Shown: piece after piece, positions 2,978 through 63,410 of the stretch
Numbering within the stretch: position 1 is the stretch's first letter
Layout: the number at the start of each line of letters is the position of its first letter
From: Antonospora locustae
Taxonomy: Eukaryota; Microsporidia
DNA: 64,000 bases
Reading direction: 5' to 3'
Assembly: GCA_007674295.1 (NCBI GenBank)
Contig: CM017457.1
Location: 84,922-148,921, forward strand
Notes under the pieces: model-generated
Database searches by the model: none
What the model was told of the DNA's origin: nothing
What the model saw: only the letters and a program-made list of their open reading frames with translations
Position numbers and translations under genes: made by a program

Positions 2978-4141
2978 TTCATGCGCTTTGTAATTTTTTA
3001 TCGCTAAGAATCGTTTAAAAAGATGTAGTTCCCGCTATTTTCTCTCGGTAATATGTCTGCAGCTCCAACAAATTAAAGGGCTGCCAGTGACCGTCTTGTC
3101 TCACTGATTGCTGTTAATACAGTACAGATGTCAGTCACTCTAAAACAGCTAAAGAAAAAGTTATTCACAACATATTTCCCATATCGCTGTCTTCGCTTTG
3201 AATGTACGTGTCTACAAGGAGAGTACTTGAGCATCAGTTGTAATTAAGCAGTTGGAAGTCAACAGACAGTTCGAACATAAGTCAGCTACTCAGTGTCAAC
3301 ATTTCAGCTAGTTGCATTAGGAAATATCAAACTTGGAAAGAATTACGCTTCGTCGCACATTGAGATAAATCTCAAATATCTTATTTACTTTATTGAATCT
3401 TTTCCTGCACTACAACGAAAGGAGCCCGCTTAGAGCGGAGAACCTGAAAAATGAACAATACAACAATACACGTAGAGTAGCTGACATACTATCGACCAGA
3501 AAATCTTGTGAAAACGCATCAGCCATTTTCAATGTGCAATCCATACAACACTGCCAAATAACATGTAGATTTTCCTGTATTCTATGCCAATGGCATTTGG
3601 AAATTCGTTTGCCGTTCGGTTTGCGAATTTATAACCCTTACTGATTCTTCTGGGCACTTATTGGGACTATAATGAGTCTTACTCTCATTAAACATCCAGT
3701 TTTCGAGAGGTACACAAGCAATGATGACAATTGGTACTTGCTCTGCCACTCACAGTAGTTGGCAGACGGAAACTCGCCATTCTGCGTAAGGCGGTTGACC
3801 TCGCTGTAGAGTCTCTTGTTTTATTGGACAATGACCTCGTATGAACGCGTGTCAATGATCTCCGCAAGGCATACAAAATGTCGTTTCCACAGCCGTAGCT
3901 GATTGCAGCACAAGCTTCTCTGGACACTCGAAATCTTGCATTCCAAGATCATTCGGTGATACGTAGCAAATCGTGATGGAGCACAACTACGTTTATAAGC
4001 ACAAAATCCTAATGACTACAGTTGCAAACCTTTCCACAAAAATAACCACTTCAACCGTTGTATTGCACATTATCGAAGTGTGGTTTCTTCTTTCTGCACA
4101 TAAGTCAAGTTCACGTTCACCACAAAGAAAGCCATGCACAG
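2978..4141. other. Gene-poor region with antisense coding debris
   Basis: No intact gene. On the minus strand, 3660-3965 has three short frames that read like fragments of one protein: QDFECPEKLVLQSATAVETT, then SYEVIVQ, then RLYSEVNRLTQNGEFPSANY followed by CEWQSKYQLSSLLVYLSKTG. They are separated by shifts and a stop, suggesting a decayed gene of unknown family. The remainder is AT-rich with no recognisable RNA gene or repeat. Confidence 0.35.
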
Positions 4142-27009: not shown

Positions 27010-28257
27010 TCACAGTAGCTTTCTTTCAAGCCCCTTTTGGGGTCCTCTCGTGTGAAATATCTTGGGACGAAAGCTATCTTTTTCCTGCATTACACTGCTA
27101 TTTCTGAACTTGTTAACCAGCTTGGAAAACCCCTGTATCGAAGCATATGTCAGCTCGCATATTTTGTTGCTGGTGAATCGCTTCCAAGTTTTTCCGTGCA
27201 CTTTCTTATAGAAGCTTACAATTGACATGCAGTTTGCAAAATTTACAAAGGCATAGCCCACGTTGCACTTGTTTTTAAAGTCCATGCGCAAGTACACAAA
27301 GTTGTATGTGCCGCGATGGTCCTCGTCAAGCAACTCGATTAACATTTTCAAAGAATACTTGTTTGGTATGTTTTTTATCATACATGTGGTTCGTCTGTCT
27401 ATACCCAGGAGTATGTCCTCCACGTATATCTCAAAATTTCCCTCGTGTCTGTACTGTTGTCGTTGCCGGATCAAATTGTTCTCCTTATTTTCCAAATACG
27501 ATGCCTCTAGGTACCATACATGTCGAATATGGCCGCCAACATGCTCCTGCTTTTGCAAATTTGTGTGGCTGCAGCCCTCTTTCTGCAGTTCGTGCATGTT
27601 GCGAACATGACATATGCTCTCCTTGCCACTCCAATGCATCACTTGAAAAGGCGGGAACCACTTACAGCTATCTCTTCTTTCCAATGCCTGATACTTACTA
27701 GAAAGACGTAGCCTGCATTCAGATGTGTGGCCTATTTGTACAGTTGGTTTGTAGGTAACTGTACAGTCGCTTTCAGACAAGCAACTACTGCAAACGTCAT
27801 CCTGTGCTTCTATGGTCTCACTCTGCAAATCAGTCCCAAAACGCCTGTTTCTCTGAGTCTCGTATGTGGGAAACTCACTGGGTTTGCGGCACTTGTCGTA
27901 TGTGATAGGAATGCTGTTGAAACGCAGCTCATGCTTGTCTATCAAGGCATTGTAGTCTGCTCTTGTCTGGTCCTTTCCATACATCAAGGCCCATATTGAC
28001 AAACTGCATGTGAAGTATGCGTCCTTCTCGTCTTCGCATCTTCTTCTTACTGCGTCTGAAACCATGTACCTTCGTTTATGCAATAAGGCTACTTTAAGTA
28101 CACTATATATGCTTTCTCTTTCTCCAAGACCTCTTGCTGCAGAAAAAGACGCAGTCTTGCTCGATCTCTGAAGGGCACTGCCTCTAAAACAGCTACACAT
28201 GGTCAATGCACAATGGCATGTCTGCAGTTTCTCTGCGGGCTTTCTCGAGCCCTTCAT
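27010..28257 (-). CDS. Mei2-like RNA-binding protein
   Basis: The ATG at 28257 has CCC 8 nt upstream, giving 415 residues; a longer frame from 28281 would overlap the CDC73 stop by 4 nt. The C-terminal about 130 residues match the Mei2-type RRM (GIDRRTTCMIKNIPNKYSLK, ELLDEDHRGTYNFVYLRMDF followed by KNKCNVGYAFVNFANCMSIV, FYKKVHGKTWKRFTSNKICE). The N-terminal 280 residues are Cys/Arg-rich and unrecognised. In fission yeast Mei2 is an RNA-binding switch for meiosis; other Mei2-like proteins act in development. A role in sporogony or meiosis is only an inference. The gene begins 20 bp after CDC73 and may be co-regulated with it. Confidence 0.82.
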   Translation of the reverse strand: MKGSRKPAEKLQTCHCALTMCSCFRGSALQRSSKTASFSAARGLGERESIYSVLKVALLHKRRYMVSDAVRRRCEDEKDAYFTCSLSIWALMYGKDQTRADYNALIDKHELRFNSIPITYDKCRKPSEFPTYETQRNRRFGTDLQSETIEAQDDVCSSCLSESDCTVTYKPTVQIGHTSECRLRLSSKYQALERRDSCKWFPPFQVMHWSGKESICHVRNMHELQKEGCSHTNLQKQEHVGGHIRHVWYLEASYLENKENNLIRQRQQYRHEGNFEIYVEDILLGIDRRTTCMIKNIPNKYSLKMLIELLDEDHRGTYNFVYLRMDFKNKCNVGYAFVNFANCMSIVSFYKKVHGKTWKRFTSNKICELTYASIQGFSKLVNKFRNSSVMQEKDSFRPKIFHTRGPQKGLERKLL

Positions 28258-28277
28258 CTCCTGATGGGATGATTGTG

Positions 28278-29054
28278 TCATAACTTCTTGTCAACCTTTG
28301 AGTTTATTCGTGCCCACATCATCTTGAACGTGCTATCATCTATTTTTGTGCCGTCCTTCACTTTGATCGACATGATATCTGCGCTTGCAAACCTTTGTTC
28401 CTCGCCATCTCGAGTGTACAGAAAAAACACCGCTACATCGTTAGTCATACTGTTCAGAGAACTCCACTTCCAGTCTCTGTACTGCCACTTACTTCCGTCC
28501 AAGAATACAGCAACAACATCCTCCCAGTCGTCAACTTTGTTCTGATATACTACATATCTGTCCTTCACCTTGACCTCCCGGTCCTCTTCTAGTGAAAGAT
28601 AGCTTTGCTTAAAAAAACCCTCCACTAGAAAAACTTTGGCATTTTCTATGTTTATTAAGGACTGATAGCTACTAGGTACTATTATCTTGTAGCTCTCCTT
28701 TCTCAAGAAGTACCTACTTATAAACGAGTAGTCGTACTCTCGTCGATGTCTCTCTGCAGGATCGAAGTCGATGACCGCACTAGCTGGCTCGTAACTTTTT
28801 ATTTCGTCGATGAGTTTTCTCTGATCGATGTAACTTACCTGCTGTATGTTGTTTGCCTTGCATTTTTTCAAGTATTCAGTGTAGGCCATGTCGATATTTA
28901 TGAGGTAAAAGCACAGCTGGTCAAGAGTGTACTGCTTGGACAATGAAAGAGGAACTACCGTGTCTCTTGGCAAAGAAAACGTGTCGATGGATACGTGTGT
29001 GGCGGTTATGTTGCATCTTGTGGGAGCCATATATGTTCTTTTTAGAATATCCAT
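28278..29054 (-). CDS. CDC73: CDC73, PAF1-complex subunit
   Basis: The ATG at 29054 follows CCC directly (TTGCCCATGG), giving 258 residues; the open frame begins at 29111. The N-terminal region matches Cdc73 (SKQYTLDQLCFYLINIDMAY, SYIDQRKLIDEI). The C-terminal Ras-like domain is clear: YKIIVPSSYQSLINIENAKV, then FLVEGFF, DRYVVYQNKVDDWEDVVAVF and LDGSKWQYRDWKWSSLNSM. Cdc73 helps the PAF1 complex ride elongating RNA polymerase II and promotes histone marks. It joins SPT5 and SUS1 in this window as part of the elongation set. Confidence 0.9.
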   Translation of the reverse strand: MDILKRTYMAPTRCNITATHVSIDTFSLPRDTVVPLSLSKQYTLDQLCFYLINIDMAYTEYLKKCKANNIQQVSYIDQRKLIDEIKSYEPASAVIDFDPAERHRREYDYSFISRYFLRKESYKIIVPSSYQSLINIENAKVFLVEGFFKQSYLSLEEDREVKVKDRYVVYQNKVDDWEDVVAVFLDGSKWQYRDWKWSSLNSMTNDVAVFFLYTRDGEEQRFASADIMSIKVKDGTKIDDSTFKMMWARINSKVDKKL

Positions 29055-34744: not shown

Positions 34745-35272
34745 TCAGAGTGTTTCAAGCACATACTTCTCACCGTTGATGCAAACACCATCCTCTAGGT
34801 ACTTTCTAAAGCAAGCCTCACACAGATTCTTATCAATAAAGTCTATCAGAGCAATTTTCTTGACAGGTACATGTCTTATTCTAATTACTCCTTTTTCGTC
34901 CTTAAATACTGCCTCTAGCACGGCGCTGGAAATGTTATTGCCCAGTTTCTGGATAACTAGCGTTTTGGTTGGGCGAAAGACAAGCTCTTGCTTGGTTTTG
35001 TATCTTCTGCTGACATTTTTTGCAAAATGAATTTTCATTGAAGTGCCTAGAAAAAAGAAGTTATCGAGAATGGATTTTATCTTTGCAGCATCGTCTGTTG
35101 TTTTGAAGGTAACAAACGCCTGCCCTCGGAGCCTCATTGTATTCCATATCGTCACATCAACAACGTAGGCATAACGTGATACAAGCATTTTCAGACGTCT
35201 TGCAAGCTCGCTTTTGTTCATTTTTTCGTTTAAATTTTGAAAATAAAGTGTTCTACACGGCCTGTTGTTCAT
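34745..35272 (-). CDS. U1A/U2B''-type snRNP protein
   Basis: A 175-residue protein with two RRMs. RRM1 matches U1A/U2B'' closely: CRTLYFQNLNEKMNKSELAR, then RRLKMLVSRY, YVVDVTIWNTMRLRGQAFVT followed by FKTTDDAAKI, and SMKIHFAKNVSRRY. The second RRM (residues about 100-175, PTKTLVIQKLGNNISSAVLE) is divergent. The protein binds U1 or U2 snRNA loops in the spliceosome; one gene may serve both. The start has GGG instead of CCC about 9 nt upstream. It is convergent with ACS, only 26 bp apart. Its presence agrees with the intron found at 55.3 kb. Confidence 0.9.
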   Translation of the reverse strand: MNNRPCRTLYFQNLNEKMNKSELARRLKMLVSRYAYVVDVTIWNTMRLRGQAFVTFKTTDDAAKIKSILDNFFFLGTSMKIHFAKNVSRRYKTKQELVFRPTKTLVIQKLGNNISSAVLEAVFKDEKGVIRIRHVPVKKIALIDFIDKNLCEACFRKYLEDGVCINGEKYVLETL

Positions 35273-54720: not shown

Positions 54721-54879
54721 AACTATTTGTAAAAGGCTTCATTTCTTTTTATTTATGACTTGTGGCTGTTGCATAGACGTGCTCCATTTGAGGTACAATG
54801 ATAACTCCAGTGCCTTGCGTTAGAAAAGACATCTGAACTCTGCCACATAGCGAGACCTTTCAACCACGCTCCAGGAAAC

Positions 54880-55723
54880 CTACCTGTCGACCTCATACAG
54901 CACCTTCAGGCCTGTGCCGTAGTGTAAGTAGTCAAGAAGCGAGAAGAGGAGGTAGATCAGCGCCCTTGCGATGTCAAGAATGAGAAGACCCAGCGCGTTC
55001 TCCGTGAAGTCAGTGATGAACCATGCAAAGACGATGGACATGTACACTATCATTGCAGCAGTCAGGGCCAGAGACACAAGCTTGCACAGAACAATCTCTC
55101 TGGCCTCGTAGAAGCAGCAGAGGGCGTCCAGCAGGGCAATAACGTAGAAGTACTGAGCAACATGTCTGACCTCCTGCATTCTGCTGTATGTGACAACGAA
55201 CACCCAGAACCTCACAACAAGATACATGTAGAAAATAAAGCGCGCAACACGCAGAAGCGTCCGAATCTAGTTAGCTTTGACTTACGTTGTGTGCGTTCTG
55301 GAGCGTGGGAGACGACCCAACGGACCTGTAGTACTTCCACAGCGCATTGCGAATGATCACATCGTAGTTGACAACCACAAACACGATCTGTGCGACAAGC
55401 GGAACCAGGTAGAAAATGAACACGTACCTGAAGCTGTGAGAAAGCGGAATGTCGATGAGCAGCAGAACAACAATCGAGAGCTTCAGTCCGATGAAGACGT
55501 AGAACGACTCGAAGCTGTCGTTTAGAATCGTGTTGAACAGAGCCAGGACACAGAGAACACGCGTTACAGATATGCACAGCTCGCCGAAAAGAATGTTTAT
55601 GGCCATGCCCGGATATTGTTCGTGGTAGTGTTTGATTATGTCGTATGTGTAGTAGACATAAAGCCCCATTTCTGCTGCGGACAGGGCAAGGTACTGAATC
55701 ACAAGCGACTTCTGTACAATCAT
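54880..55723 (-). CDS. Polytopic membrane protein, two exons joined across a 19-nt intron
   Basis: Exon 1 is 55723-55286 and exon 2 is 55266-54880, giving 274 residues. The ATG at 55723 follows CCCC directly. Removing the intron joins the two frames in phase 0 and restores a continuous membrane protein with about seven hydrophobic segments (SLVIQYLALSAAEMGLYVYY, FIGLKLSIVVLLLIDIPLSH, YVFIFYLVPLVAQIVFVVVN, LVSLALTAAMIVYMSIVFAW). The junction falls inside the motif LWKYYRSVGSSPTLQNAHN plus IRTLLRVARFIFYMYLVV. This resembles a WxxYKxxGxDxxLxxxYxxxxxLLKxxxFF pattern that I associate with uncharacterised fungal membrane proteins. Function unknown. Confidence 0.75.
55267..55285 (-). other. 19-nt spliceosomal intron
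   Basis: The minus-strand sequence is GTAAGTCAAAGCTAACTAG: a perfect GTAAGT 5' site, a CTAAC branch-point-like motif, and the 3' AG two nt after it. Unspliced, the frame stops at TAA within the intron. Splicing out exactly 19 nt keeps the frame (phase 0) into a second long open segment of consistent membrane-protein character. Microsporidian introns are short and carry the branch point next to the 3' end, but 19 nt is at or below the shortest known class. Confidence 0.75.
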
Positions 55724-55783
55724 GGGGCTTGCTTGCGGTCTTCTCTGTCCTGAGGGTCTGCACACAAAGCAGAGAGACAGCAT

Positions 55784-57660
55784 GCGCCTTCGCCAGATGA
55801 AGACAAGACAAGCAGCTGTTCACTGTGTTTCGTCAATGCAGCGTGCATGCGCAGATGCACATTCCACCAGGGCAAGACAATCGGCCGGGTGAAGAAAGTG
55901 TGCATCGTTGTCTGTGCCACTTTGTTGATGCTCGGCTGCAAGCAGCAGTTGCAGCCATTTTCAAAGACAGCAACTAAGCCAGAGAAGCAGAGTGGGACTC
56001 CAGACAATGCCGCTGCACAGAGACATAGAAAGGGCCTTGGCGACTTCTACCAGAGCTCACACATAGGGCGTGTCTGGTGCTTGCAGAGAAGCCCGCATGC
56101 GCTGCTGCTATCAGAAGAAGGACGCAAATGTCAAAACAGCCTTTGTCCACGGCCTTGTGCAGAAGCACAGTGTGCTTGTGGGCAGAAGCCAGACAAATTG
56201 TCATTGGCAGAACAATGTTGGAGGGACTGTGAGCATGTGCATCTGATTTGAAACGTGCTATTGCTTTTTCGCCGCATGGATGTCGCCAGGTCTTTGAGTA
56301 CGACGACGAACACACAGCCTCTTTTCGATGCTACAGCAGCGTGCACACAGAGCACTTTCTCACCAGTGAAGTGCCAAGGACACATGCAGAGGACATGCAG
56401 GCATCCTACCTGTACCGAGCCCAGCAGACAGCACGTGAGAGCACAAACACACAACAACTGCCTGGACTTGCACAGGGACATCGTGCTCTGGCGTTGGGCA
56501 CATGCACGAGCCACGGTGCGTCTGTTGAGGCGTCTTGGCCAGAATGCTGCTTGGGCATTCGCAAGCTGTTCTTGTGCAGAGACGTTCAAGTTGCCCGAAG
56601 AGATGTACAACAGAACCAAGGTGCAAGCACAGCCGCAGGAGCAGAGAATCCTTGCTCACAAGCCACGCTCTTGCACTGTCGTTCGGTCAGGCACACACTC
56701 CGATGAAGCAGTGTTCACACTGTATGGAGAACTGTTTCGAAGCCGCAAAGTGTCAAAAAGAAGTCCGATTCCTGCTAGAAGCAGTGCTTCTTTCCGACGG
56801 AGGGGCAGCAAGCTTTGTGCCGTCGGACCTGATGGAAAACGTCGAGGCAGCCACACTGGCGTGCTTCTGCAACGATGCGAGCCCGTGATCGCCAAACAAT
56901 GGACACGCTCGTCCCTCTGCGCCCTATCGATTTCTCGGGCAGCAGATAAGTGGGGCTTCCATTCTGCAAGCACTGCTGCGACCTCTTTGGCACAGAATGC
57001 CAGAGGACCCGGGACTTGCCAAAAGAGTCCAGAGGGCATGTATCTTGCAGTGGACATGCATGCACCTGTGTGCGGGTCGTCTGTCCTCGGAGCAGACATT
57101 GTATGTGGAGGCACAATATGCAGTTGCACACACCATGGTGCCATTGGAGGCGTGTGCACACATCGACGCGTATTCCACAGGACATGTTGTGCATGCGAGA
57201 GCGATAGCCAGCTCTACTCTGCGTGCACCTGGTGCAGAAGCTGCAGAGCAAGCTTTGCTCAGGGACACTCATGCTCGCGGCTACATAGTGCGCAAGCTGT
57301 TTGCAACGAGTACTGCGCGCATGCAGATGGTGCTCACTCACAAAGAGCACTACAGGTTGCCAACCGAGAAGAAAGAGCACGAAGACAAACAAAGACACAT
57401 ACGCGTCAGCTCTGCAGCGGAGACACGCGTCGCAAGCAGCGCAGAGGCCGCGAGACAGCCGCGCTGAAGTGCAGGGGTGCTTGGACCAAGTGGCACAGAA
57501 CGGAGAGGACTCGACGGAGACGTTTCTGTGTGCACATCTTGAGACCACAAGTGCATCGGACAGAATACAGAGCACCCACAGCTGCTGTGCATACATTAGG
57601 ACAGAGTGCGAGCGCCCCTTCGGAAAGCCAAACAATCAACCGCACAAGGACAGAGTGAGA
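55784..57660. pseudogene. GC-rich region of long overlapping broken frames
   Basis: Unlike the rest of the window, this 1.9 kb is rich in GC and in Cys/His/Arg codons and is open in several frames on both strands. On the plus strand one frame is open from 55847 to 57658 with a single TGA at 56249; its first part begins with a possible signal peptide (VCIVVCATLLMLGCK). Another plus frame, 56535-57467, reads more protein-like, with one TGA at 56886 (SGASILQALLRPLWHRMPED, AEQALLRDTHARGYIVRKLF). Yet another covers 56248-56703 (CRQVFEYDDEHTASFRCYSS). I cannot choose one real frame. A decayed or frame-shifted accessory gene is the best reading. Confidence 0.35.
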
Positions 57661-58086
57661 CCAGCAGAAATATCGCTGCAGGCGGCGTTGTTGTAACACA
57701 CGAGGAACGCAAACTGAGAACCACTGCAACACAAGTGAAAGCACACGTGGCTTGTCCGATTTTCTGACGTAGAGTTTGTCTCAATCAACGGTTACTGCAA
57801 AAGAAATGGACGATGATTCGTCAATGCTCGTGTAACACACATCGACATGATAGCAGTTGTTCGCGCAGATGCAACAAATAAAGGCAATTCATCTACACGC
57901 CACATTACCTCTGGATGTGCGGTGTCACAAGCACACAGAGGTATGACATGTCAAATGTGTTTGCTGACAACTGCAGTCCAAAAAGAGTGACAGCATTGCT
58001 AGGTACATCATCGAGTCTGTGCACGTGTGTGCACAAGCCAAGGAATAGTACCTTTACCACATTTACAGGCGATAGGGAAGCAGCCC

Positions 58087-60576
58087 ATGTATCTGCAGAG
58101 GACGGTGTGCATGGGAATGCATGTGCTGTGTTGCCTCGGCACAAGAGACAGCAGCGCGCAACCTGACGAGAGTGCACTCACAGTGTGCATCTCCAACGAG
58201 CGTGCAGTCAAGTTTTTGGACGATAACGGAGAATTTGTTGAGGAGAAAAGATACAGATTCGACATGCGTGTTCGGTGGGACAGAGAGGCATTTGGCAGGG
58301 CAGTCGAGATGCTTGGAGGACTGCAGAGCTGTATCGATGCTGAGAAGATGAAGGCGATTCTGAGAGCAATGGCCGGTCAGAGCACAGACACAGAGAGTGC
58401 ACACATGCACGACACAAGAGGTGCAGCGGAGATTCTATGGAACAGAGAGGTGTTTGACAGGGCAGTCCGAACTCATGGAGGAAGACTGCAGAGCAACGTC
58501 AATGCTGAGGAGATGGAGGCGATTCTGCATGCAATGGCCTACCAGAGCACAGACAAAATCGACATTCTGCAGGTGTCTGGCTATATGGAGGCAGTAGCAA
58601 AGCATAGCGGGGGGAGTTACGAGATCGCGTGGGACATAGAGATCTTTGATAAGGCATACAGCATACTGGTCGGAAAGGAACAGTACAAAGTGAATGCAGA
58701 CGAGATAGTGGAGATTGTGCATCTGATGGATTATCTGGGCATACAAAAGGAGTGGGAAGAGGCGTGCTATGGCAAGCTGGCAAGAAAGACAATGGAAGAC
58801 TACAAAGAGGCAGCAGGATCCATCGAGATGTTCATAAAGAAAGCAGCAATGCTATGGAAATTTTTGTTGTCGCATGTGCAGAATCTTCTGGGGCTGCATG
58901 TGGAAAGAAAGACAACAGATGACTGCAAAGAGACAGCAGTAGAGTACATCAAGAAGTTCAGGGAAAAAGCGGTGAAAGAGAACATAAAGCCACAAAGCTT
59001 CTTGCTGTACACGCAGCACCTTCTGAGGCTGTATGCAGAGGAGCACGGAATGCGTTTGACGGTGGACGAGAAGAGAAAGACACTCGATCTTTGGCGCACT
59101 AATAGCAAGAAAGAGCAGAGAGAGAACAGAACAGAAGACTGGGAGCTGAGATTGGAGGTGAGCGACGAGTACAGAAGACAGACAGAGGTGCAGCGAGTGG
59201 CAGAGGTGCTGATGGAGGTGATGGACACAGCAGTCAGGGTGGACGTAGAGGAGTGGAAGCCAGAAGACAAGATAATGGTGGAGAGGATCATTTCCAAGGC
59301 AAAGAAGACGGAGCTGAGAATAAAGAGCAGTAAAGTAGAGCCAGGAGCGATCGCACAGCACATGCGGAAGCTGAAGAACAATGTCGTGGAGCTGGGTGTT
59401 TCAGAAAACCATCTAAGCGACAAAGACTGGAAGACAATAGGAGAGATAACAAGTATCAAGAGACTGAACATGAGTCGTTGTAATCTTCAAGCAGGAAGCA
59501 TCGCAAAGCACATGCAGAAGCTGGACCTTGTGGAGCTGAATGTTTCAGAATACGAAAACCTGATCGAAATAGATTGGATAACAATGGGAAAAATGACAAA
59601 GCTTAAGAGACTGAACATAAGTGATTGTAACCTTCAGGCAGGGACGGTTGCACAGCACATGCAGAAGCTAGACCTTGTAGAGCTGAATGTCTCGTGGAAC
59701 AGAAACCTAAGCGACGAGGACTGGAAGACAGTGGGAGAGATGACAAGGCTTGAGAGGCTGAACATAAGCAATTGTAACATACGAGCAGGGGCAATCGCAC
59801 AGCACATGCAAAATCTGAACCTTGTGGAGCTGAATGTCTCGTGGAACAGAAACCTAAGCAACGAAGACTGGAAGAGAGTGGGAAGTATGACAAGGCTTGA
59901 GGGGTTATACATAAACTATTGTTACGTACAAACAGGAACAATCGCAGAGCACATGCAGAGTCTGAAGAACAATCTTGTAGATCTGAGTATTATGCGAAAC
60001 AGAAACCTGTGTAACAAAGACTGGAGAACAGTGGGAGAGATGACAAGGCTTGAGAGACTGAACATAGTGAACTGTGACATACAAGCAGGAACAGTCGCAC
60101 AATACATGCAGAAGCTGAACCTTGTAGATCTGAATATTGCGTGTAACAAAAACCTAAGCGACGAAGACTGGAGAACAGTGGGAGAGATGACAAGGCTTGA
60201 GAGGCTGAGCATAAGTGATTGTGACATACAAGCAGGGGCGGTTGCACAGCACATGCAGAAGCTGAACCTTGTAGATCTGAATATTGCGTGTAACAAAAAC
60301 CTAAGCGACGAAGACTGGAGAACAGTGGGAGAGATGACAAGGCTTGAGAGGCTGAGCATAAGTGATTGTGACATACAAGCAGGGGCGGTTGCACAGCACA
60401 TGCAGAAGCTGGACCTTGTGGAGCTGAATGTTTCAGAATACGAAAACCTGATCGAAATAGATTGGATAACAATAGGAAGAATGACAAAGCTTAAGAGGCT
60501 GAACACAAGGGGCTGTAAGATACAAGAAGAGCAGTTTTCGAGATACCTTGCAAGACTCAGATATCGCATATACTAA
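58087..60576 (+). CDS. Large LRR protein with N-terminal POZ/Skp1-like repeats (paralogue A)
   Basis: The frame opens at a GTG (58027), but the ATG at 58087 directly follows CCC (CAGCCCATG), giving 829 residues. Residues about 40-240 hold three repeats of a half-domain like the C-terminal part of BTB/Skp1 folds (REAFGRAVEMLGGLQS...KMKAILRAMAGQS; REVFDRAVRTHGGRLQS...EEMEAILHAMAYQS; EIFDKAYSILVGKEQ...EIVHLMDYLGIQKEWE). A basic, helical middle follows to about 425. The C-terminus has eight units of 49 residues, each two leucine-rich repeats (LVELNVSWNRNLSDEDWKTV, then GEMTRLERLNISNCNIRAGA). A substrate-adaptor or host-facing LRR role is an inference. Its paralogue lies 1.07 kb downstream. Confidence 0.8.
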   Translation: MYLQRTVCMGMHVLCCLGTRDSSAQPDESALTVCISNERAVKFLDDNGEFVEEKRYRFDMRVRWDREAFGRAVEMLGGLQSCIDAEKMKAILRAMAGQSTDTESAHMHDTRGAAEILWNREVFDRAVRTHGGRLQSNVNAEEMEAILHAMAYQSTDKIDILQVSGYMEAVAKHSGGSYEIAWDIEIFDKAYSILVGKEQYKVNADEIVEIVHLMDYLGIQKEWEEACYGKLARKTMEDYKEAAGSIEMFIKKAAMLWKFLLSHVQNLLGLHVERKTTDDCKETAVEYIKKFREKAVKENIKPQSFLLYTQHLLRLYAEEHGMRLTVDEKRKTLDLWRTNSKKEQRENRTEDWELRLEVSDEYRRQTEVQRVAEVLMEVMDTAVRVDVEEWKPEDKIMVERIISKAKKTELRIKSSKVEPGAIAQHMRKLKNNVVELGVSENHLSDKDWKTIGEITSIKRLNMSRCNLQAGSIAKHMQKLDLVELNVSEYENLIEIDWITMGKMTKLKRLNISDCNLQAGTVAQHMQKLDLVELNVSWNRNLSDEDWKTVGEMTRLERLNISNCNIRAGAIAQHMQNLNLVELNVSWNRNLSNEDWKRVGSMTRLEGLYINYCYVQTGTIAEHMQSLKNNLVDLSIMRNRNLCNKDWRTVGEMTRLERLNIVNCDIQAGTVAQYMQKLNLVDLNIACNKNLSDEDWRTVGEMTRLERLSISDCDIQAGAVAQHMQKLNLVDLNIACNKNLSDEDWRTVGEMTRLERLSISDCDIQAGAVAQHMQKLDLVELNVSEYENLIEIDWITIGRMTKLKRLNTRGCKIQEEQFSRYLARLRYRIY
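60115..60408 (+). repeat. Two identical 147-bp LRR units
   Basis: 60115-60261 and 60262-60408 are the same base for base by eye (49 codons each, LNLVDLNIACNKNLSDEDWR onward). Neighbouring units differ at many sites, so this is a very recent in-frame duplication. In addition, unit 2 (59521-59667) and unit 8 (from 60409) share a nearly identical first 100 bp (VELNVSEYENLIEIDWIT), which points to conversion or shuffling between non-adjacent units. Confidence 0.85.
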
Positions 60577-61480
60577 GATAGCATGTCAAAAGACAAAATA
60601 CAATAAGTGATGCCGGGACAGCCGTTCGAAAAGGCATTGTGTGGCATCAGCCAAGTGTCTGGATGTTGCTCTGTGTCTGTAGCTGGCGACAACCGCCAGC
60701 GAGGAGGAGATGCATGGCCAACAGCAGGCATGGATGCGCTGGACCGAGTGGCAGCTAAACCAGAGCCCTAATAAACGCAGCCTATATATCTCTTTTCACA
60801 CAGCCAAAGGATTGCACGTCAGACAGAGACCGCTCAGGCAGAGTCACACGAGTATCTGAATGCACTCTGTCCCGTCTTGTTGCACCGGCTCTGCAGACGC
60901 ATATTGTGACCCATTGTCTGCAGCTTTGAGCCGCGTGTTGTCATGGCAGTGTCCGTGCGGGGTGCCAGTGCATGTCTCTCTTTCCAGCCTAGCGGCCTCC
61001 TCGTGTATTCTGTGCACTAGAGATAGCTGCTGCGTCGAGCCGAAAAGGTCTCCAGGCGGTGTCCGATGAGCACTTTGCAGAGAACATCGTCATGCCACCT
61101 GAACTTGTGGCCCGTTCTCTTCGCACCGTGTTTGCGACTCGGCTTACCTGTCGCCTCGACATGGTTTCTTGACAAAACATTCTCCTCACTCATATACCGC
61201 ATTCCTTGGAAGAATAGGGAAGGTGGCCTAGGAGATCAACAAGGACACGAGAAGGCTGGGCGAGAAGAGTATGCAGAAGAGAGATACAGTGCACAAGAAC
61301 CCACAGAGAACCCGAGAAAAGCACAGAACAACTAAAAGAGAGTTTGTGGAAAGTCCTGAGGAAAACGGATGATTTGACACAAACGTTACCACAATACTCT
61401 AAACGGTCATGCAAGCTGACAGCATGGACAGCAGAGAAGAAGCACGTTCGAAAAGGCGTGGACACAGGGCAACAGCAGCA
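60577..61480. other. Spacer between LRR genes with coding debris
   Basis: About 0.9 kb with no intact gene. A plus-strand fragment at about 61025-61170 reads like protein (LQAVSDEHFAENIVMPPELV followed by ARSLRTVFATRLTCRLDMVS) and ends at a stop; upstream frames are broken (TAG at 61017 and again at 61023). No family is recognised. Confidence 0.35.
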
Positions 61481-63410
61481 CCAGGCGAATGAACAAATAA
61501 AGGATCTTTCTACATCTGTCACATTCTAGCACGAGTATCCACACGCACTGTCAACCTCAGTTCAAAGAGAGACAGACTGCTAGGTGCATCATCGAGTCTG
61601 CGGAGATGTGTGCACGAATGAAGTGACAGGACACACGGCAGAATGACAGCACTTTCACCACATTTACAGACGATAAAAAACAGCCTATGTGCAGTCAAGT
61701 TTATGGACGAGAAGAGAAACGTAGTCAAAGAGAAAAGATACAGATTCAACATGTGTTTTCAATGGGACAGATATGTGTTTGACAGGACAGTTGAGATGCT
61801 TGGAGGACAGCAGAGCCATGTAAGTGCCAGGGAGATGGAGACGATTCTGAGAGCAATGGCCAGTCTGAGCACAGACACAGAAAGTGCACACATGCACGAC
61901 ACAAGAGGTGCAGTGGAGGTTCAGTGGGACAGAGACAAGTTTGCCGAGGCAGTCAAGATGCTTGGAGGACAGCAGAGCAAGGTCGACGGCGAGGAGGTGG
62001 AGGCGATTCTGCATGCAATGGCATACCAGAGCACAGGGAAAGTCGACATGCTGCATGTGCCTGAATACAAAAATACAGGAACAAGGTGGGAAAGGAAGAC
62101 TTACGAGATCGTGTGTGAAAGAAATATCTTTGAGAAGACATGCAACATAATGATGGGAAAGGAGCAGGAGAAAGTGAATGCAAGCGACATGGTGGATATT
62201 CTGCATGTGATGGATTACCTGGGCATACGAAAAGAGTGGGAATGGGCGTGCTATGACAAGCTGGCAAGAAAGACAATGGAAGACCACAAGAGAGCAAGGC
62301 AGAAATCAGCAATAGAAGAGATCAGGGTGTCCAGAAAAGAAGAAAAGTCAGTGGGCAGAAGGCTATTGAACATCTTCTTGTTATGCATGCAGAATCTTCG
62401 ACGACTGTCTGTGAAAAGAAAGACAAAGGAAGACAACAGAGAGGCAGCAATAGGAGACATCGAGGAGATCGGAAAAGAGCTTGTGGCAGATCCCAACAAG
62501 ACAGACAACATCTTTTTGTACACACAACACCTTCTGAGACTGTATGCAGAGGAGCACGGAATGCATTTGACAGTGGACGAGAAGAGAAAGACACTCGATC
62601 TTCGGCGCAGTCATAGCAATAAAGATCGAAGAGAGAACGGGACAGAAGACTGGATTCTGAGAGTGGAGGTGAGCGAGGAGTACAGAAGACAGAGAGAAGT
62701 GCAGCGACTGGTGGAGGTGCTGATGGAGACGAAGGACATATCAGTCGAGATGGATGTAAGGGCATATAGGCCAGAAGACAAGCAAATGGTGGAGAGGATC
62801 GTATGCAAGGCAAAAAAGACTGGATTGAGAATAAAGTGTGGGAGAGTAAGGCCGAGAGCAATTGCAGAGCACATGCAGAGTCTGAAGAACAACATAGTAG
62901 AGCTCGATGTCTCGTCAAACGAAAACATGGACAATGATGACTGGAAGACAGTGGGAGAGATGACAGGGCTAGAGAGGCTGAATATAGGATATTGTAGCAT
63001 ACAAGCAGGAAAGATCGCACAGTACATGCAGAGTCTGAATCTAGTAGGGCTGGATTTATCATGGAGTAGAAACCTGAACGACGAGGACTGGAAGACAGTG
63101 GGAGAGATGACAAATCTCAAGAAGCTGAACATAAGTGGTTGTGATGTGCAAGAAGAGCAGTTTTCGAGATATCTTGGAGGACTCAGATGTCACATAGAAA
63201 GATAGCATCTCGAAAGAGAAAACCAACATGTGGTGCCATAACGGCCCGCCAAGAAGACACTGTGTTGGCCATGTACAGCCAAGGCCTGCAAGTCACACAG
63301 TGTCTCTGCACTTTGGTAACAGCCAGCGAGAAGACAGGTGTGTCCAAGAGCAGCAAGCGCGGATGCGCTGGACCAAATGGCAGCAAGAGCAGCACATCTA
63401 AATAAATTTT
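61480..63410 (+). repeat. Tandem duplication unit B (LRR gene plus flanks)
   Basis: The second copy of the unit described at 57.85 kb. Shared words occur in the same order: AACAAATAAAGG (61491), GCTAGGTGCATCATCGAGTC (61582), CACCACATTTACAGACGATA (61655), the LRR gene, and GATGCGCTGGACCAAATGGC (63362). It is shorter, mainly because the LRR array has two units instead of eight. Confidence 0.65.
61643..63205 (+). CDS. LRR protein with N-terminal POZ/Skp1-like repeats (paralogue B)
   Basis: A 520-residue paralogue of the gene at 58.1 kb. The three N-terminal repeats (RYVFDRTVEMLGGQQSHVSA; DKFAEAVKMLGGQQSKVDGE; NIFEKTCNIMMGKEQEKVNA) and the basic middle align along their length (shared LYTQHLLRLYAEEHGM, TVDEKRKTLDL). 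The LRR array has only two 49-residue units (DWKTVGEMTGLERLNIGYCS; LDLSWSRNLNDEDWKTVGEM), ending in the same EEQFSRYL. The region matching the paralogue A start codon and CCC box is deleted, so the start is either 61643 or the ATG at 61703. It may be expressed differently or be losing function. Confidence 0.7.
   Translation: MTALSPHLQTIKNSLCAVKFMDEKRNVVKEKRYRFNMCFQWDRYVFDRTVEMLGGQQSHVSAREMETILRAMASLSTDTESAHMHDTRGAVEVQWDRDKFAEAVKMLGGQQSKVDGEEVEAILHAMAYQSTGKVDMLHVPEYKNTGTRWERKTYEIVCERNIFEKTCNIMMGKEQEKVNASDMVDILHVMDYLGIRKEWEWACYDKLARKTMEDHKRARQKSAIEEIRVSRKEEKSVGRRLLNIFLLCMQNLRRLSVKRKTKEDNREAAIGDIEEIGKELVADPNKTDNIFLYTQHLLRLYAEEHGMHLTVDEKRKTLDLRRSHSNKDRRENGTEDWILRVEVSEEYRRQREVQRLVEVLMETKDISVEMDVRAYRPEDKQMVERIVCKAKKTGLRIKCGRVRPRAIAEHMQSLKNNIVELDVSSNENMDNDDWKTVGEMTGLERLNIGYCSIQAGKIAQYMQSLNLVGLDLSWSRNLNDEDWKTVGEMTNLKKLNISGCDVQEEQFSRYLGGLRCHIER

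Follow-up and report, generated by a model that had tools for sequence, protein, structure and literature searches.

A frame break in a membrane-protein gene

Can a stretch of only 19 nucleotides between two open frames be an intron, or does it mark a broken gene, a misassembly, a place where the ribosome changes frame, or simply the space between two neighbouring genes? The question is posed by two minus-strand frames in the window, as we call the whole 64,000-nucleotide stretch of DNA that was analysed here. The first answer appears to us a highly likely one: judged from its sequence, the segment would be a U2-type spliceosomal intron in the gene of a multi-pass membrane protein, in a genome of microsporidian type, and very probably the cell cuts it out.

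The segment, GTAAGTCAAAGCTAACTAG, is 19 nt long and occupies positions 55285-55267 of the minus strand, exactly where an earlier sequence-only reading had placed an intron with GTAAGT, CTAAC and AG. Exon 1 (55286-55723, minus strand) comprises 146 codons and its translation starts MIVQKSL, the MIV start being common to the window protein and to its relatives P0004 and P0008. Directly 5' of the ATG stands CCCC (55724-55727, minus strand), also as described in that reading; it resembles the CCC-like motif that is reported to come just before the majority of E. cuniculi genes and to serve as a start marker in microsporidia (PMC2803860). Exon 2 (54880-55266, minus strand) has 128 codons followed by TAG. 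Each exon consists of whole codons, and exact removal of the segment joins the two in phase 0, as had been claimed, restoring an open and conserved protein of 274 amino acids plus stop, hydrophobic overall, its hydrophobic stretches lying both before and after the junction. The only Pfam family touched by the window exons is RseC_MucC, at E 0.46 and 10.8 bits against a cut-off of 24.4.

The segment has the anatomy of a conventional intron on a very small scale. It opens with a consensus GT donor, within a GTAAGT (55280-55285, minus strand) whose full length is complementary to an ACUUAC close to the 5' end of the U1 match of this genome, and it closes with an AG acceptor (55267-55268, minus strand). 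The branch motif CTAAC (55270-55274, minus strand) can pair with the GUAGUA of the U2 that was found. The presumed branch adenosine, chosen by consensus, is intron position 15, which is 14 nt from the donor G, and the G of the acceptor lies 4 nt past it. Splicing would thus have U1 pair with GUAAGU and U2 with CUAAC, the spliceosome would cut at the AG that ends four bases past the branch adenosine, and codon 146 (AAC) would be joined to ATT in phase 0.

A sequencing or assembly error has in its favour that assemblies commonly contain artefactual breaks in frame. Against it, no deletion of one or four bases and no insertion of two bases joins the frames anywhere within 60 bases on either side of the junction, because the TAA of the first frame adjoins the TAG that precedes the second (TAACTAG). 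In addition, a duplicate of the gene on contig C1 has identical letters at the intron, and the interruption appears to be common to homologues in other records. The likelihood of such an error therefore seems to us close to nil. The same TAACTAG weighs against a translational mechanism, in which the ribosome shifts frame or bypasses the 19 bases and no RNA is removed. Such a mechanism would also join the frames, though nothing specific recommends it; the frames do not overlap, neither being open across the end of the other, the gap to be bridged would need to measure 19 nt in the window but 20 nt in the relatives, and the presence of the GT, the branch motif and the AG would go unexplained. 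We give this mechanism practically no weight. Among GT-AG pairs of 10-90 nt, taken between 90 bases ahead of the donor and 60 past the acceptor, two restore the frame; the pair other than the intron itself begins GTTGGG and was rejected, as it would delete VGSSPTLQNAHN, which is mostly conserved in relatives.

The motif alone proves nothing. The pattern proposed in the sequence-only reading occurs once in the window against 0.07 expected (at least one occurrence in 7 of 100 shuffles), and this single occurrence does fall at the frame break; a scan of the whole genome (3.17 Mb), which that reading had recommended, found no enrichment, with 5 occurrences against 7 for a mirrored control, two of the five being the window intron and its duplicate. 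Other patterns gave 3 against 3, 12 against 33, 43 against 90 and 105 against 278, and only a TAAYTAG version was enriched over its mirrored control, at 18 against 9. Forward counts were thus not above the mirrored control in five of the six patterns, and motif scanning was dropped as evidence. Support comes instead from the position of the motif at the frame break and from its conservation in relatives.

Homologues with a longer interruption

A protein search with exon 1 returned P0004 (63% identity) and P0005 (59%), the third match, P0003, being exon 1 of the window gene itself, and an alignment search, which scored only the 7994 candidates sharing most words, returned P0009 (61% identical) and P0008 as well. 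P0004, P0005 and P0009 all run past the last exon-1 residue, with NA[HY]N-VS[QR] followed by sequence unlike exon 2. The VSQ or VSR at this point is the translation expected of a GTAAGT-type donor. We asked, offset by offset, whether codons can encode the tail of the homologue and, in another frame, exon 2 of the window. At an offset of 20 the fitting residues number 14 of 17 for P0004, 44 of 65 for P0005 and 21 of 24 for P0009, against 4 of 11, 18 of 60 and 9 of 27, respectively, at the next best offsets within 10-39; over a wider range of offsets the next best values are 5 of 10 for P0004 and 17 of 43 for P0005. In 1000 shuffles of exon 2 for each of the three homologues, none reached the observed fit. 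When P0007 takes the place of window exon 2, the P0005 tail shows no clear optimum (26 of 57 at 44, 22 of 58 at 41). P0007 is the exon-2 frame stored for the gene of P0004 and is 61% identical to exon 2 of the window over 94%; the records of P0004 and P0007 give the same longest-contig figure, 9334, and the two proteins overlap fully, at 10 of 10 residues, if GTG or a similar codon is allowed as the first.

Since the frames fit at an offset of 20, the loci of P0004, P0005 and P0009 very probably have an interruption of 20 nt at the very codon where the window has one of 19. The homologous proteins argue strongly for conservation of the donor and of both exons, and for the 20-nt length in the relatives. 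Behind a segment of 19 nt in the window and of 20 nt in the relatives, exon 2 can stay in frame only through removal of that segment. Ancestrally, the site would probably have held 20 nt, with one base lost inside the intron of the window gene, a loss that would be harmless because the whole segment is removed.

P0008 matches both exons as one stored protein, at 55% identity. In its model exon 1 ends at the corresponding point (NAYN), and 29 residues that follow there in the window protein are missing (245 against 274 amino acids), which suggests that the annotation took the same donor and a later acceptor, presumably because very short introns are not modelled. The protein comes from a 1.95-Mb contig in the assembly of the louse Menopon gallinae, where it is recorded as a contaminant, suggesting that the sample contained a microsporidian. 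Alignment of the joined protein to its homologues, proposed beforehand as a check on the intron, thus came out in its favour, with one relative covering both exons and three whose tails fit exon 2 at the shifted offset.

P0008 also bears on the view that these are two separate genes lying side by side. That view accords with the ORF finder's listing of the frames apart and with the storage of the window gene (P0003, P0006) and of one relative (P0004, P0007) as two proteins each. It is at odds with a single stored protein that matches both frames, and with an exon 2 that is open and conserved directly from the AG, upstream of its own first ATG. We consider it extremely unlikely.

Copies within the same genome

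The gene and its intron are carried on a subtelomeric segment (54872-62743; also L012 1-6984) that recurs at the start of contig C1 as two blocks, one at 54872-59621 that is 99.9% identical over 4751 bp and one at 60301-62743 that is 98.2% identical over 2450 bp. The intact copy on C1, with its intron at C1:6571-6589, agrees with the window at 1913 of 1914 bases, and the letters of the intron are the same; being a recent subtelomeric duplicate, it is not independent evidence. The similarity to C1 stops 8 bases past the stop codon of the gene. Leucine-rich-repeat protein genes lie at 58087-60576 and 61643-63205, near the contig end, and the stretch that contains them holds further matches, 76-81% identical, to the end of C1.

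Another copy, at C10:63379-63684 (L013 about 3380-3685), is truly decayed, with 33% identity and three stops inside the match. It reads ...AACGCATACAAT GTAAGTCAAATTTTAATTAG ATCCAGACG, so that a 20-nt intron-like sequence, GTAAGTCAAATTTTAATTAG, is present in the DNA at the same site (C10:63416-63435). Both the decay of this copy and the subtelomeric, duplicated location lend some colour to the idea that the window gene is itself a pseudogene, a once continuous gene broken by an insertion and by stops. Yet both of its exons are otherwise open, the inserted bases make up a consensus intron, and the comparison with P0004, P0005 and P0009 places an interruption of different length at the same codon, all of which leaves a pseudogene very unlikely.

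The spliceosome of this genome

The machinery that a U2-type intron needs is represented in the genome, most weakly by U1. A Prp8 PROCN domain occurs in an open frame of 1925 amino acids and in none of 14 control genomes. The U6 match scores 63.5 bits (47 of 366 candidates scored) and the U2 match 71.8 bits (46 of 90 candidates scored), both over the cut-off, and U2 carries GUGUAGUAUCUG / GUAGUA. The U1 match is full-length and has ACUUACCU near its 5' end, but at 45.2 bits (41 of 87 candidates scored) it stays below the Rfam gathering score of 69.5, and the U1 search, at E up to 1, also rings in 3 of the 14 control genomes, in none of them over the cut-off. The window itself encodes an RRM protein of 175 amino acids like U2B''/U1A (34745-35272, minus strand; Pfam RRM_1 2e-10), whose best PDB match is U2B'' at 1e-16; the sequence-only reading had cited a U1A/U2B'' protein in the window as a sign of a living spliceosome, and on the protein it was right. 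It had also named a Brr2-like pseudo-helicase, which was not recovered: of the 97 ORFs in the window with 90 amino acids or more, 49 were scanned with Pfam and none matched a helicase family, and a PDB sequence search of the 742-amino-acid window ORF found nothing. An RRM_2 protein (4e-40), which we take to be of Mei2 type, is encoded at 27010-28281 on the minus strand, beside Cdc73 and Spt5-like genes.

The sole U6 match found among the candidates scored (C3:143216-143314; L037 1501-1599) reads ACUGAGA in place of the ACAGAGA of the Rfam consensus. The base that differs is reported to be the target of METTL16 and to lie opposite donor position +4, in a box with 100% conservation across 240 species, of which 230 are Saccharomycotina (PMC10581693). 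The U found here is complementary to a donor +4A, and +4A is present in 7 of the 7 introns considered, a uniformity that is partly one of selection because GTAAGT or a close form was in the search patterns. The METTL16 family, PF05971, was not found in the genome (0 of 1) by a search that rings in 5 of the 14 controls, four over the cut-off, and that could miss a very divergent member; other U6 copies could similarly hide among the unscored candidates. No U6 with ACUGAGA was seen among the literature matches listed.

We offer, tentatively and at somewhat less than even odds, a broader proposal: that splicing has been rebuilt around minimal +4A introns. U6 would have changed from ACAGAGA to ACUGAGA, the A methylated by METTL16 giving way to a U that pairs with the +4A of GUAAGU, and the METTL16 family would have been lost. 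In such a system U1, U6 and U2 would form complete Watson-Crick pairs with the donor and branch of introns of 19-20 nt, and these would be read with neither a methylated U6 nor a pyrimidine tract. Should the U6 change prove general in the lineage, it would offer a natural test of the idea that methylation of U6 aids pairing with +4A donors.

Other candidate introns

A frame test was applied to 44 distinct GTAAGT...TAAY...AG sites in 71 loci, none of them from the pattern with counts of 105 against 278; 26 entries were checked, from the patterns with 5 against 7, 3 against 3, 12 against 33 and 18 against 9, and the sites of the 12 against 33, 18 against 9 and 105 against 278 patterns were examined in part. 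Nine of the 44 sites passed. As background, the same loci contain 5680 generic GT..AG segments of 19-23 nt, of which 114 pass as type A and 192 as type B; of 4252 arbitrary removals of 19 bases, 210 pass as type A and 205 as type B. The nine are five in Pfam-identified genes, the window gene, C14:18393, L039 (28 nt) and L055 (17 nt). The last two pass the frame test without other support and were not counted; L055 (C9:20903-20919) is a 17-nt GTAAGT...TTAACAG that stands three codons past an ATG and before a 435-codon frame, and has no independent support.

The candidate GTAAGT introns in Pfam-identified genes are those of S6e (23 nt), L37e (23 nt), S30 (22 nt), ThiF (21 nt) and L39 (20 nt). 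In S6e the Pfam match extends over the junction, as it does in ThiF, where the candidate sits in a glycine-rich loop; in L37e, S30 and L39 the intron comes directly after the ATG, and the Pfam match accordingly lies in exon 2 alone. Introns in S6 and L39 have also been reported from other microsporidia (PMC2803860, PMC3486916). Candidates of at most 21 nt are thus those of L39 and ThiF, together with a second one of 19 nt, GTAAGTGCAATTTAATTAG, at C14:18393-18411 (L032 1501-1519), in phase 2 of a gene for a hydrophobic protein that matches no Pfam family. This last is a plausible intron; by BLASTP its protein shows weak similarity to the window exons (E 0.027 and 1.3, a single pair).

In the seven introns considered (those of the window gene, C14:18393, S6e, L37e, S30, ThiF and L39) the distance from donor to branch, measured by eye, is smallest in the two 19-nt cases, at 14 in both. 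The 3' end is TAAYTAG in five of the seven, S6e having TAATTTAG and S30 TAACTTGAG. From this uniformity, and because the window intron has no room for a pyrimidine tract, we infer that branch and acceptor are probably read together, as one block (CTAAYTAG).

Splicing or retention

Short microsporidian introns are often poorly spliced, a point that counts against the intron reading: six of eight candidate introns of S. lophii are reported to be kept in transcripts (PMC3749934), and a median splicing efficiency of 25.3% is given for V. culicis (PMC4435813). Such figures favour a variant, compatible with the preferred explanation, in which the intron is genuine but mostly retained, splicing being inefficient or acting as a switch. 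The main product would then be the exon-1 protein of 150 amino acids, since a kept intron gives a stop after four intron codons and the ending NAHNVSQS. The two exons are conserved to about the same degree, however (61% for exon 2 with P0007, 63% for exon 1 with P0004), which speaks for the spliced form being of importance. Past NA[HY]N, moreover, read-through gives a tail of 4 residues in the window, 24 in P0004, 31 in P0009 and 72 in P0005, and with lengths so different there would be no conserved retained product. Predominant retention is possible, in our estimate, but rather unlikely.

Comparison with known short introns

If the window intron is spliced, as we believe, it shows how small a substrate a stripped-down splicing machine can handle, and it would be a comparatively supported intron of microsporidian type shorter than the 22-nt minimum that has been reported for E. 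cuniculi. The difference of 20 against 19 nt at one site amounts to a natural one-base difference, useful for finding out what restricts the size of introns when the spliceosome is reduced. We recognised no 19-nt microsporidian intron in print by title or abstract, and an earlier report is still possible. There is also a warning for annotation: an ORF finder, or a setting for minimum intron length, will split or trim genes of this kind, as happened to the window gene, to one relative and, with the loss of 29 residues, to P0008.

The sequence-only reading had ranked this intron among the shortest known. That holds against E. cuniculi, whose introns are given as 22-76 nt (PMC3629993), and does not hold among eukaryotes at large, where ultra-short introns are already a known class: 18-21 nt in nucleomorphs, 16-17 nt in mikrocytids and 15-16 nt in heterotrich ciliates (PMC10245619). 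As introns of these three groups reach 15-21 nt, one of 19 nt is short for microsporidia and no record. E. cuniculi resembles the present genome in having few introns, of GT-AG type, with a strict donor and branch motif, and in that many are in ribosomal-protein genes; the window intron differs in falling below its size range and in lying in the middle of a membrane-protein gene. Heterotrich ciliates share with it the ultra-short length (PMC10245619). Chlorarachniophyte nucleomorphs have introns of the same size class, also in a reduced genome, but these number more than 800 and, in B. natans, are described as having no identifiable 5' splice-site motif (PMC10245619, PMC6461891), whereas here the donor and branch are strong and few introns have been identified. 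Mikrocytids likewise combine a reduced spliceosome with tiny introns of narrow size, in their case 224 nearly uniform ones (PMC10245619), as against the few candidates of 19-23 nt in the genome described here.
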